From positions 1,860,001 to 1,924,000 of the forward strand of contig NZ_CP117449.1 in assembly GCF_030687835.1 (NCBI RefSeq): a stretch of 64,000 nt of DNA, given 5' to 3'. The notes below the pieces were generated by a model. That model was not told where the DNA came from. It worked only from the letters and a program-made list of their open reading frames with translations, and searched no databases. Each line of letters opens with the position of its first letter. The stretch's first letter is position 1. This DNA is from Pseudomonas hefeiensis (GTDB taxonomy: Bacteria; Pseudomonadota; Gammaproteobacteria; Pseudomonadales; Pseudomonadaceae). Positions 16,333 through 20,146 of this stretch are shown here, piece after piece. Both the position numbers and the translations under genes were made by a program.

Positions 16333-16643
16333 AGTGATGCCTCCGTTGCGAGCGTGGGTCAGGGGCTCTGGTTGATGCCCTTGAAACCTTGGGTGCATTT
16401 GAACGGGGCAACGTATCCGGGCTGTGTCGAATGGGAGGCAAAAGTGCAAGGTTATGTAGCGAAGTATCCTCGGGATACACGAGGATACATGGCAGCAGAA
16501 TATGTGGCTGAGAACAGCAGAGCCTACCTCTGATCCTTGCGCGTTCGGTTGCGCGTACAAGTGGTCAAGCAAGAGTGCATTGTCGTAATGACTTCCACTG
16601 TCATGCGTCTATGATCACTGATCACCTGGAGCGAGAACTTGAA

Positions 16644-17684
16644 ATGGATGCCCACATTCGCCTCGCAACAATCGAGGACGCGCAAGCAATAAGCAACGTT
16701 GTGATCAGCGCTCTGCGCCAATCCAATGCGAAAGATTACCCGGCCGATGTAATCGCCCGTGTGGAGCAGAGCTTTTCTCCACTGGCGATTGAGCGATTGA
16801 TGGCGCGGCGTCGGGTGTATGTGGCATCTGTCGAACAGCGGGTTGTCGCGACGGCCAGCCTCGATGGGGATGTGATCAGAAGTGTTTTTGTAGAGCCGAG
16901 CTATCAAGGAGCAGGCGTTGGCAGGCGGCTAATGTCAGTCCTGTGTTCAGCCGCTCTCGACTTGGGCCTGGAGACTTTGCATGTGCCATCCTCTATTACA
17001 GCTGAGAGTTTTTACACCGCGCTGGGATTCCATAAGGTACGTGACGAATTCAACGGCGCCGAGCGCACGATCATCATGCGTAAATCCATGACGCAAACCA
17101 CCCCCACGCTCCAGACCCGCCGCCTTATCCTCACGCCTTTGCAACTGGTCGATGCAGCGGCTATTCAACAGCTGTTTCCCCATTGGGAAGTGGTGCGTTA
17201 TCTCGACAGTCGCGTGCCATGGCCCTATCCGAAAGACGGCGCTCTGACGTACGTTCGCGACCATGCCCTTCCCGCCATTGCGGCGGGGCGTGAGTGGCAT
17301 TGGATGATCCGCACTTGCGAAGATCCGGCACATTGCATCGGGAGCATCAGCCTGTATGACCAACCTGGGAACAACCGGGGTTTCTGGCTGGCGCCTCAAT
17401 GGCAGGGAAAGGGCTACATGCGCGAGGCTTGTGAGGTTATCAACGCCTATTGGTTTGAAACCCTGGGGCGTCCCGTCATGCAAGTGCCCAAGGCGGAGGG
17501 CAATCATGCTTCGCGTAAAGTTTCGGAACACGAAGGCATGCGCATGATCGCGACACAGCAGGGTGATTTTGTCTGTGGGCCATTGCTTAAGGAAGTCTGG
17601 GAAATAACGCGGGAAGCGTGGCTTGAGAAAAAATCGGCTTTGGAGGCAATTGAGCAGGGTGCAAATGAGCCCGGTCGCCTTTGA
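16644..17684 (+). CDS. Double GNAT-domain acetyltransferase (RimI-type plus RimJ-type)
   Basis: 346 residues with no stop between the two domains. Domain 1 (~1-150) is a RimI-like GNAT with VEPSYQGAGVGRRLM as acetyl-CoA loop. Domain 2 begins at MTQTTPTLQTRRLILTPL (~residue 152), a typical start of a RimJ/RimL-type GNAT; its acetyl-CoA loop is LAPQWQGKGYMREA. The second ATG (in GTAAATCCATGACGC) sits where a separate gene would begin, so this may be a gene fusion. The start at 16644 follows GGAGCGAG. Substrates unknown. Confidence 0.8.
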   Translation: MDAHIRLATIEDAQAISNVVISALRQSNAKDYPADVIARVEQSFSPLAIERLMARRRVYVASVEQRVVATASLDGDVIRSVFVEPSYQGAGVGRRLMSVLCSAALDLGLETLHVPSSITAESFYTALGFHKVRDEFNGAERTIIMRKSMTQTTPTLQTRRLILTPLQLVDAAAIQQLFPHWEVVRYLDSRVPWPYPKDGALTYVRDHALPAIAAGREWHWMIRTCEDPAHCIGSISLYDQPGNNRGFWLAPQWQGKGYMREACEVINAYWFETLGRPVMQVPKAEGNHASRKVSEHEGMRMIATQQGDFVCGPLLKEVWEITREAWLEKKSALEAIEQGANEPGRL

Positions 17685-17740: not shown

Positions 17741-18142
17741 TTGGATATTCCACAGGGCTTCAAACCGTTATTTCGCAGCAGTCCTTTTCTTGATCTACTA
17801 GGCCCTTTCTACTATCGGGAAAACGCCGAAGGATTCACCGTTGGGATTCGGGTCGAGAAGAAACACACCAATGCGCGTGGACTCGCTCACGGAGGGTTGT
17901 TCATGGCGCTGGCTGATATTGCTTTGGGCTACAGCGCTGCCTTCTCGAAAGATCCGCCACTCAAGCTCGTGACCACCACAATGACCACTGATTTCGCTGG
18001 CTCCGCTAAGGTAGGCGATTGGTTGGAGGCTGCCGTTGATATTCAAAAGTCCGGTAGCCGACTGGTTTTCGCCAATACCTATATAAGCGCTGGAGAGGAG
18101 CGCGTGGTACGAGCCAGTGCGTCTTTTCTTGTGGTTGGTTGA
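17741..18142 (+). CDS. PaaI-family hotdog thioesterase
   Basis: 133 residues starting with TTG at 17741, which is preceded by AAAGGAG six bases away. The hotdog signature NARGLAHGGLFMALADIALG holds the family's HGG segment; the acid residue after it (ALAD) is the usual catalytic base. PaaI-type enzymes hydrolyse small acyl- or aryl-acyl-CoA. Acts in the cytoplasm. Confidence 0.85.
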   Translation: MDIPQGFKPLFRSSPFLDLLGPFYYRENAEGFTVGIRVEKKHTNARGLAHGGLFMALADIALGYSAAFSKDPPLKLVTTTMTTDFAGSAKVGDWLEAAVDIQKSGSRLVFANTYISAGEERVVRASASFLVVG

Positions 18143-18249
18143 AAGCATCTGGGGACGCACTACAGACGTCGAGCTTTGCATTCAAGCCCCCGCTGCGATG
18201 ATGCGCGGGGTGCTAAGTTTTACCGTCAGCAGTGATCAAGGAAGAACGC

Positions 18250-18615
18250 ATGGAACCGATACTTAATCGAATAATGCTGTATGTACGGGATGTCCAGGCG
18301 ACCTGCGTTTTTTATGAGCGTCATTTCGGCTTTGTCAGTGAAAAACATGCCGATGATCGCGTCACGGAGTTGGGGTCTGCAAACGGAGGCGCGATTCTGA
18401 TGGTTCACCCGGCAGGGAAGGGCGTTAAAACGGGACAAGTCACAGTCAAGCTTGTTTTTGATACCCGGGATGTTGAGGGCTTCAAGGAGAAGTGCATGGC
18501 CCAAGGCTTGAAGTTTGGCGCCACCCACAAGGCCGACGGCTATTCATTCGCCAATGCCAAAGACCCTGACGGCAACGTCATCTCTATCTCCAGTAGAGCG
18601 TTTGCATGCCGCTGA
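18250..18615 (+). CDS. VOC-superfamily (glyoxalase-like) protein
   Basis: 121 residues, two betaalphabetabetabeta modules: NRIMLYVRDVQATCVFYERHFGF, and the second strand set with YSFANAKDPDGNVISIS, the usual metal-binding end of VOC proteins. The start at 18250 is set by AAGGAAGA nine bases upstream rather than the GTG at 18232. Its last 10 bases overlap the start of the DapF-like gene, implying translational coupling. The shared function is unknown. Confidence 0.8.
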   Translation: MEPILNRIMLYVRDVQATCVFYERHFGFVSEKHADDRVTELGSANGGAILMVHPAGKGVKTGQVTVKLVFDTRDVEGFKEKCMAQGLKFGATHKADGYSFANAKDPDGNVISISSRAFACR

Positions 18616-19427
18616 GCTTTCATAAAATGCACGCCAATGGCGATGATTTTGTTGTCGTGGACGCGCGAAACTCAACCAATCCCATAACAAATGCCATGGC
18701 CCGGCGGATGGGGGATCGCAACCGAGGCATCGGTTTTAATCAACTCGCGGTGATGCTCGATTGTGAGGATGCAGACGCGCGCCTGATGTTCTGGAATGCA
18801 GATGGCTCCACGCTGGACGTTTGCGGCAGCGCGACGCGGGGCGCCGCGGATCGGTTGATGCGCGAATCGAATGTGACTTCGATAACGCTACGCACCCATC
18901 GCGGTTTGCTCACTTGCGAACGAACTTCACCCGACGCAATTTCCGTCAACATGGGGCAGCCGCTTTTCGGCTGGTCGGACATTCCCTTGGCTGGGGACCT
19001 GGACACCGCTGTTCTGCCACTGGCTGGCAGCCCGATTGCGTGCAGCATGGGCAACCCACACTGCACTTACTTTGTGGAGGATCTGGCGGACGTTGATATC
19101 GCGACCATAGGACCTGCAATCGAAACCAGCCCTTTGTTCCCGCTCAAGACCAACGTGCATTTCGTTCAGGTCATCAATCGAAAGCACATTCGTTTGCGCA
19201 TATGGGAGCGGGGCGGTGGCATCGCACTCGGCTCAGGTTCCTGCTCTTGTGGCGCCGCTGTGAACGGGATTCGTCGTGGCTTGTTGGATCATTGCGTTGA
19301 GGTTGAATGTGATGGTGGCAGCGTGACGGTTCAATGGGATGGCCTGGGACCGGTTTTTCTCATCGGGCCGGTAGAGGCAACGTTTTCGGGAGTTATCACC
19401 GATAGTTTTCAGCAAATCTCAACCTGA
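18606..19427 (+). CDS. DapF-like epimerase paralogue with altered active site
   Basis: 273 residues, the length of diaminopimelate epimerase, with the matching N-terminus (FHKMHANGDDFVVVDAR) and NADGS motif. The first catalytic Cys is kept as Cys73 in DVCGSATRG. In the second half, the family motif ERGxGETxxCGTG is replaced by ERGGGIALGSGSCSCG. The catalytic Cys position is Ser210 and the substrate-binding Glu is Ile206. The CGNGARC motif has also changed. DapF activity is therefore doubtful; a different racemisation, isomerisation or dehydration reaction is possible. It overlaps the VOC gene upstream. Its 3' end overlaps the convergent GntR gene by 19 bases. Confidence 0.82.
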   Translation: MPLSFHKMHANGDDFVVVDARNSTNPITNAMARRMGDRNRGIGFNQLAVMLDCEDADARLMFWNADGSTLDVCGSATRGAADRLMRESNVTSITLRTHRGLLTCERTSPDAISVNMGQPLFGWSDIPLAGDLDTAVLPLAGSPIACSMGNPHCTYFVEDLADVDIATIGPAIETSPLFPLKTNVHFVQVINRKHIRLRIWERGGGIALGSGSCSCGAAVNGIRRGLLDHCVEVECDGGSVTVQWDGLGPVFLIGPVEATFSGVITDSFQQIST

Positions 19428-20146
19428 TAGCGAAAAGTGCCAGCCGCTCCCCGTGACAGCCGATATTCCAGGGGTTGACGGTCGTAGCCCAGGGCAACCC
19501 GTTCAACTACCACCACCGGGCTGCCGGCCGTCACTCCCAGCGTGGCGGCCAGTGGCTCGTCGGCCGAGGCGACGGTGAGGGTTTCCCGGGCTGATGCGAC
19601 GCGCATGCCGCAGCGTTCTTCGTAGAAGGGGTAGAGCAGGGTGCCGAAGTCGTTCAGGTCAGTGTCGAGTAGGGCGCCGAATTGAGTGGCCGGCAGCCAG
19701 ATTTGCTCGTGGAACAGCGGCCGACCGTCCATGAGGCGCAGGCGCTCCAGGCGGATGGTGGAGTCGTGCTCGGTCAGATTCAGCGCCTGGCGCACGTGGG
19801 TGTCCGGGGCTTCCTGGGTGCGACTCAGTATGCGGCTTTGCGGCACTTGCGATTGACCGCTGGCATCGACCTGTCGAAAGAAACGAAACAGTGAACCGTC
19901 GAAGTTGGGCCGGCGCACGAACGTGCCACGGCCCTGGGCACGCAGCAGCAGTCCTTCCCCGACCAGCGTTTCCACCGCTTTGCGCACCGTGCCCACCGCA
20001 ACGCCGTAGTGACGGGTCAGTTCTGCCTCGGTGGGAATGGCTTCACCGGGCAGCCATTCACCTGCGGCGATTTTCGCCAGCATCTCTTCGCGCAGTCGTT
20101 GATAGAGCGGCAGTCGCTCGTCATGTCCAAGGTGTGTAAGGGCCAT
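19409..20146 (-). CDS. HutC-type GntR regulator (UTRA domain)
   Basis: 245 residues. The wHTH covers ~10-75 (LPLYQRLREEMLAKIAAGEWL, AVGTVRKAVETLVGEGLL, GRGTFV). A UTRA ligand-binding domain follows (RLERLRLMDGRPLFHEQIWLP, ... EYRLSRGAAGTFRYQVEI). HutC-family regulators bind small catabolic ligands. It is divergent from the amidohydrolase and MatC-type permease genes and probably controls them. A 7-bp perfect inverted repeat overlapping their promoter is a candidate operator. Confidence 0.85.
   Translation of the reverse strand: MALTHLGHDERLPLYQRLREEMLAKIAAGEWLPGEAIPTEAELTRHYGVAVGTVRKAVETLVGEGLLLRAQGRGTFVRRPNFDGSLFRFFRQVDASGQSQVPQSRILSRTQEAPDTHVRQALNLTEHDSTIRLERLRLMDGRPLFHEQIWLPATQFGALLDTDLNDFGTLLYPFYEERCGMRVASARETLTVASADEPLAATLGVTAGSPVVVVERVALGYDRQPLEYRLSRGAAGTFRYQVEIC

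Follow-up and report, generated by a model that had tools for sequence, protein, structure and literature searches.

Diaminopimelate (DAP) epimerase, DapF, is the standard example of an epimerase that uses two cysteines, and it is also a drug target. A 64,000-nucleotide stretch of the Pseudomonas hefeiensis chromosome, referred to here as the window, carries a gene at 18606..19427 on the forward strand that encodes a DapF paralog of 273 amino acids with only the first of the two catalytic cysteines; serine stands in place of the second. The question raised by this locus is what such a protein does, and whether the missing cysteine is the feature that tells us.

A DapF paralog in addition to the housekeeping gene

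The protein matches Pfam PF01678 and scores 195.5 bits against TIGR00652, for which NCBI's DapF cut-off is 114.65, and its AlphaFold2 model has a mean pLDDT of 94.2. Foldseek and VIA searches with the paralog returned the expected fold only. The families matched were DAP_epimerase/DapF, with PhzC-PhzF and bifunc_DapF below their cut-offs; membership in the PhzF family was rejected on sequence. Sources that name proteins of this group call them 'diaminopimelate epimerase'. The retained first catalytic cysteine is Cys73 (codon 18822..18824, + strand). Ser210 (19233..19235, +) replaces the residue that is C217 in H. influenzae DapF, and it pairs without gaps with the second catalytic cysteine of solved DapFs in three alignments. 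Cys213, Ser214 and Cys215 follow (19242..19250, +). A sequence-only reading of this DNA had described the gene, its kept Cys73, its Ser210 and the two nearby cysteines in the same way, and the open reading frame, family score and alignments bear this out.

The paralog is not the housekeeping dapF, which sits elsewhere in the same 6.45-Mb chromosome (C1:6169947); that canonical DapF is 37% identical to the paralog and has its CGN and ACGTGAC motifs intact. A third DapF-fold protein of 330 amino acids is encoded outside the window in the C1:2018823 region (L007:919-1908). It scores 70.6 bits against TIGR00652, below the cut-off, and by eye has serine at both catalytic cysteine positions (RSGNG ... 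ASSGTSAS); a locus in another genome (L175) has a second motif similar to this one. The gene beside the third protein is presumably an amidohydrolase/cytosine deaminase.

Immediately upstream of the paralog and on the same strand, a VOC/glyoxalase-fold gene (18232..18615, starting at GTG 18232 or ATG 18250) ends at 18615 and overlaps the paralog by 10 bases, as had been noted from the sequence. The further suggestion that the two form a VOC operon and a functional pair was not upheld. The VOC gene adjoins the paralog in only 4 of 64 loci (the window, L037, L046 and L048), and among 149 sampled Pseudomonas genomes it was found in 7: adjacent in 4, present together with the paralog but apart in 2 (G049 and G083), and without the paralog in 1 (G146). 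It is a local neighbor with no conserved partnership. A hotdog-fold thioesterase-like gene further upstream (17741..18142, +) and a GntR/UTRA regulator gene that is convergent and tail-to-tail with the paralog (19409..20146, - strand) are likewise neighbors only. Elsewhere in the window, a single open reading frame at 16575-17684 contains two tandem GNAT acetyltransferase domains. A promoter scan of the whole window gave 2 promoter-like sites against 0.8 expected.

The serine is conserved

C73, S210, C213 and C215 are invariant in 121 of 121 aligned paralogs (the query and the best 120 of 630 matches). Pairwise dN/dS against four relatives is approximately 0.09-0.14, which indicates that the paralog is under purifying selection. 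Together, this invariance and the low dN/dS argue that Ser210 is neither a chance replacement nor a sequencing error. Close relatives with the normal second-cysteine motif, which the sequence-only reading had named as evidence against itself, were found outside the clade only, and none of the clade members read carries that motif. Copies with one internal TGA were observed in genomes G001 (L029/L058) and G061, and in the G001 copy the open match picks up again at the conserved Asn64; these are possibly decaying copies or sequence errors.

Serine is also the second residue in most DapFs of a Rhodobacterales sample

A relative at locus L102, from an 'uncultured Rhodobacteraceae' MAG, is itself of the Ser type, and a homolog search with it found serine at the second position in all of the best 120 of 7999 proteins (119 by pattern and P0235 by eye), a sample biased toward the query. 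A less biased sample consisted of 101 genomes of the MAG's order, which is Rhodobacterales by record titles. Each of these genomes had exactly one DapF match, all over the cut-off, and the first catalytic cysteine was kept in 101/101. The second residue was serine in 83 of the 101 (76 SGSSSC and 7 SGSCSC, the latter identical to the motif of the window protein) and cysteine in 18. Ddh was over its cut-off in 0/101 genomes, with 14 weak partial matches, and DapL, searched with model TIGR03542 only, was also over its cut-off in 0/101, with other aminotransferases matching weakly in all. DapE of the succinylase route was over its cut-off in 97/101 genomes and within 5 bits of it in the other four. 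The dapF loci of the best-scoring 30 of the 101 genomes (13 Ser, 17 Cys) all share a same-strand downstream gene family, presumably MtaB-like, and because the locus is shared in 30/30 the Ser- and Cys-type genes look like orthologs. The gene content of these genomes suggests that the Ser-type Rhodobacterales DapF is very probably a working DAP epimerase.

Since the same replacement is present in the sole DapF of 83/101 Rhodobacterales genomes, the change from cysteine to serine is not the clue to the function of the paralog. The sequence-only reading had proposed a new reaction or substrate. The part of this that rested on the cysteine-to-serine change as evidence for dehydration falls with the Rhodobacterales result, whereas the part that concerns a divergent paralog beside a canonical DapF stands, and function has probably changed. 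A change from Glu to Ile206, which had also been singled out, proved ordinary, as alphaproteobacterial DapFs commonly have I or V at that position.

The serine is accompanied by a second change three residues on, a position occupied by Cys213 in the window protein. In 407 rows, a cysteine at the catalytic position goes with Gly or Ala at +3 in 74/74 and a serine goes with Ser or Cys at +3 in 333/333 (203 Rhodobacterales-type and 130 paralog rows); given that the rows share ancestry and include at least one protein twice, this coupling is to be read as a pattern and not as a statistical test. Among the 221 Rhodobacterales-type rows, +3 is serine in 195, and the full motif is SGSCSC in 8. The second catalytic sulfur of Anabaena DapF is described as close enough to hydrogen-bond with the backbone amide at +3 (PMC12039745, excerpts), so that a reshaped helix cap could plausibly compensate for loss of the thiol. 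Compensation would be needed: engineered Cys-to-Ser mutants of PddB are reported to keep <0.1% activity, a figure also given for M. tuberculosis DapF (PMC8225329, excerpts), so an epimerase with serine at this position requires that the coupled changes be real compensation. The portion available of an R. sphaeroides Tn-seq study (PMC5513736) does not mention dapF, and no description of the paralog or of a natural Ser-type DapF was seen among the papers listed by searches of the open PMC library.

The catalytic subsite is altered and the distal site is kept

The features that separate the paralog from other DapFs lie at different positions. Set against a sample of 100 other DapFs, the 21 rows of the paralog clade show the changes G8 to A10, N11 to D13, D43 to N45, N75 to S75, C79 to G79 and A216 to G209, and these positions were otherwise invariant in the 100-row sample except C79, which was present in 98/100 (DapF numbering follows a row from an enterobacterium, in which N11, N75 and C217 have the same numbers as in H. 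influenzae). These clade-defining changes (D13, N45, S75, A10, G79 and G209) are absent from the sequence-only reading. In a larger alignment, D13 (codon 18642..18644, +), N45 (18738..18740, +) and S75 (18828..18830, +) were found in 142/142 paralog rows, 12 of them duplicates, while the corresponding residues were N, D and N in 277/277 other DapF rows.

In characterized DapFs, backbone amides of G74, N75, G218 and T/S219 hold the carboxylate that reacts, the N11-equivalent is close to the reacting alpha-amine, and N64, N157, N190, E208 and R209 hold the distal amino acid (PMC12039745 and PMC8225329, excerpts of both). Eight contacts of C. glutamicum DapF, among them N15 (treated here as equivalent to N11) and N85 (equivalent to N75), were each replaced by alanine, and the mutants are reported to be almost inactive (PMC5296763, excerpts). 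The catalytic subsite of DapF (N11, N75 and D43) is thus replaced by Asp, Ser and Asn in the paralog rows, whereas the distal subsite is kept in sequence: N64 is present in 141/142 paralog rows and N150, N183, E201 and R202 in 142/142 each. The opposite exchanges N11D and D43N resemble a swapped hydrogen-bond pair, as far as can be judged from the aligned residues. Of the two cysteines expected of DapF (C73 and C217), the paralog has serine at the 217-equivalent in 121/121 proteins, but the missing second cysteine alone does not exclude DapF function, since Ser-type sole DapFs exist. What distinguishes the paralog, by alignment, is a predicted catalytic subsite that is altered next to a distal amino-acid site that appears intact.

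Origin and distribution of the paralog

Trees were built with the motif columns excluded, a careful tree of 77 rows and a quick tree of 121 rows. In the 77-row tree the paralog forms one clade (100/100) inside the Rhodobacterales-type group (99/99), and its nearest relatives are Cys-type rows, Limibaculum and one other (L101 and L299; 99/91). The 121-row quick tree supports the same larger group. Placement of the paralog outside the Rhodobacterales-type group was rejected on the 77-row tree (p-AU 0.039), with groups that had been chosen after viewing the tree. A common origin of the serine motif was not rejected on that tree (p-AU 0.065). In the 121-row tree the Ser-type Rhodobacterales and the paralog fall in separate clades; their union has a p-AU of 0.67, and the joined tree is 16 log units better. 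At 0.62 changes per column, the paralog stem in the 77-row tree is long, which is what a change of function would be expected to produce. These trees are consistent with descent of the paralog from a Rhodobacterales-like DapF, which we propose as part of the overall reading given below.

The paralog clade (at least 368 bits) was detected in 42/149 sampled Pseudomonas genomes, whereas some DapF match was present in 149/149. It also occurs, in single records and partly on plasmids, in Rhizobium, Burkholderia, Herbaspirillum, Sphingomonas, Pantoea and Paraburkholderia; the paralogs of two Rhizobium genomes, one Burkholderia and one Herbaspirillum are 64-68% identical to the window protein. A second DapF accompanies the paralog in those same two Rhizobium, one Burkholderia and one Herbaspirillum genomes, in one named Pseudomonas and in 'gamma proteobacterium L18'. 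This second DapF is of the Cys type in both Rhizobium and in Herbaspirillum, and the Burkholderia copy ends at a contig edge before the motif. Because a canonical DapF coexists with the paralog in its own genome, and a second DapF in the other hosts checked, DAP epimerization is already provided for.

In a plasmid collection, 8 of 112 matching records were 60-67% identical to the paralog: Burkholderia (3, on replicons of 3.2-3.5 Mb), Rhizobium phaseoli (2), Sphingomonas morindae, Pantoea dispersa and Paraburkholderia sprentiae. CGSATRG was present in 8/8 of these copies and the serine motif in 7/8. In the P. sprentiae record the match covers 74% of the query and IS1182/IS110 transposase genes are nearby; IS66/IS21 transposase genes lie near the P. 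dispersa copy, and one R. phaseoli copy (L317) changes frame.

Neighboring genes were clustered for 64 loci, some species being included twice, using a crude ORF caller that resolved the gene itself in 55/64. The 55 resolved loci have 37 distinct families of immediate-upstream ORFs, which include GNATs, a weak cupin match and, by eye, a peptidase and a transporter. No family recurs beyond local synteny (the largest spans 16 loci of a Pseudomonas subgroup), which led to rejection of a conserved pathway partner. Nor was a metallophore partner, which the sequence-only reading had considered, noticed on inspection of the loci. GNAT enrichment upstream is not claimed (3/37 upstream families compared with 24/716 families overall); the GNAT profile, which was home-made, failed to pick up the gene upstream in L084, a gene that looks by eye like the second of the two GNAT domains in the window ORF at 16575-17684. 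Adjacent upstream sequence was common to 66/1953 locus pairs, and in 23 of these it was short. Several of the short stretches (50-160 bases) are shared between loci with different neighbors and include, by eye, a promoter-like stretch and a ribosome site, which suggests that the moving unit is the gene with its own promoter. The window copy instead overlaps the VOC gene. The varied upstream families, plasmid copies, short shared upstream regions and tree placement are best explained by a mobile gene, though not one that is mobile everywhere, since a Pseudomonas subgroup keeps one locus in which up to 16 loci share a neighbor family.

Function of the paralog

The reading that we favor, to which we give roughly even chances, is that the paralog is a horizontally moving, neofunctionalized one-thiol racemase or epimerase of the DapF family for an amino acid other than DAP. 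That it works on a different amino acid is probable from the altered subsite residues. In this proposal the distal site would grip a free L-alpha-amino-acid head and a different group would be presented to Cys73, which would remove the alpha-proton from the L centre. A proton would then come back from the Ser210/Cys213 face, and the net result would be an epimerization or racemization biased from L to D. Assignment of Cys73 to the L centre is consistent with the binding of L,L-aziDAP to the first cysteine of Anabaena DapF (PMC12039745, excerpts), and a racemase with a Cys/Thr pair has been reported to run one way, from L to D (PMC8142540, excerpts). Serine at the second position looks compatible with epimerization, given that most genomes of the Rhodobacterales sample have it in their apparently only DapF. 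Against the favored reading, the paralog passes NCBI's DapF cut-off, no conserved pathway partner was found in 64 loci, and engineered Cys-to-Ser mutants are nearly inactive.

The loss of the second thiol could also mean that the enzyme is a dehydratase or eliminase, in which Cys73 removes the alpha-proton, a beta-leaving group departs and Ser210 is unable to return a proton. There is chemical precedent, as DapF eliminates from fluoro-substituted substrates and Cys-to-Ser mutants of glutamate racemase from 3-chloroglutamate (PMC8142540, excerpts), and a Cys-to-Thr change goes with dehydratase activity in the trans-3-hydroxyproline dehydratases of the proline racemase superfamily. However, serine is found in the only DapF of 83/101 Rhodobacterales genomes. 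In the proline racemase superfamily a Ser/Cys dyad epimerizes 4-hydroxyproline and it is the Ser/Thr dyad that is a dehydratase (PMC4113996, excerpts), although, judging from residue numbering, the serine of those dyads stands on the other face than Ser210. With no gene family recurring beside the paralog beyond local synteny, we consider elimination unlikely. The Rhodobacterales data also bear on the idea that the role of second catalytic thiol has passed to Cys213, a helix turn further along, which would leave a racemase with two thiols in a shifted geometry. All clade members have Cys213 (121/121 in one alignment, 130/130 in the other); it lies within the first turn of a helix that begins at residue 211 in the predicted model, and has a counterpart in the 8/221 Rhodobacterales-type rows that also read SGSCSC. 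Against this, serine rather than cysteine at +3 in 195/221 of those rows implies that a thiol there is not needed for a Ser-type enzyme, and such a takeover seems highly improbable.

Another possibility is that the paralog is an auxiliary and merely divergent second DAP epimerase. Its TIGR00652 score, its complete set of distal DAP contacts and the occurrence of the Ser-type motif in sole DapFs all agree with this. It is difficult to reconcile with replacement of N11, N75 and D43, all invariant in the 277 non-paralog rows, with the near inactivity of the C. glutamicum mutants at contact asparagines (to Ala, not Asp or Ser), or with a host that already has a canonical DapF, and we regard it as quite unlikely. 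On the favored reading of a mobile epimerase for another amino acid, the paralog would be a mis-annotated enzyme of new specificity.

A wider proposal, which we hold tentatively and at somewhat short of even chances, is that there is a second, one-thiol architecture of cofactor-independent amino-acid epimerases, made of a cysteine face and a Ser-Gly-Ser-[Ser/Cys] helix cap. It would run the essential DAP epimerase of most Rhodobacterales, an enzyme predicted to favor conversion of L,L- to meso-DAP, and the window gene would be a mobile offshoot, remodeled by N11D, D43N and N75S, that epimerizes another amino acid. Engineered Cys-to-Ser enzymes are almost dead, yet the change occurs naturally, with a coupled change at +3, in an apparently essential enzyme of most Rhodobacterales, and also in a mobile family of paralogs from bacteria associated with soil and plants. 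Provided that the Ser-type enzymes are active, how one thiol suffices becomes directly testable.

Comparison with known systems

The best solved relatives of the paralog are DapFs. The histidine racemase CntK has two catalytic cysteines. CntK and HisR (PDB 6jis and 9cr6) are 13-14% identical to the paralog, CntK is absent from its 18 sequence matches, and mutant entries C67S and C209S exist for HisR, whereas the paralog is without the second cysteine; identity with these racemases was rejected on these grounds. The O-ureidoserine racemase (PDB 7vdy) also differs, in that two cysteine residues are used (PMC8142540, excerpts). Members of the proline racemase superfamily, such as hydroxyproline epimerase (4lb0) and the dehydratases 4k7g and 6r76, are 11-15% identical, have other substrate contacts and, by their numbering, appear to carry serine at the other dyad residue (Ser90/93) and not at the C217 equivalent. 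Membership in this superfamily, or among the trans-3-hydroxyproline dehydratases, was rejected because no such family was matched and the residue is Ser, not Thr.

From DapF itself (TIGR00652, PF01678; PDB 9mro, 3ejx and 1gqz) the paralog differs by serine for the second cysteine and by N11D, D43N, N75S, A216G, G8A and C79G, and its host has a separate canonical DapF. The Ser-type Rhodobacterales DapFs share with it the serine at the second cysteine, Ser or Cys at +3 and the same larger tree group, but they keep CGN, GNDF and GFDQ, lie at the dapF locus and are presumably DAP epimerases.
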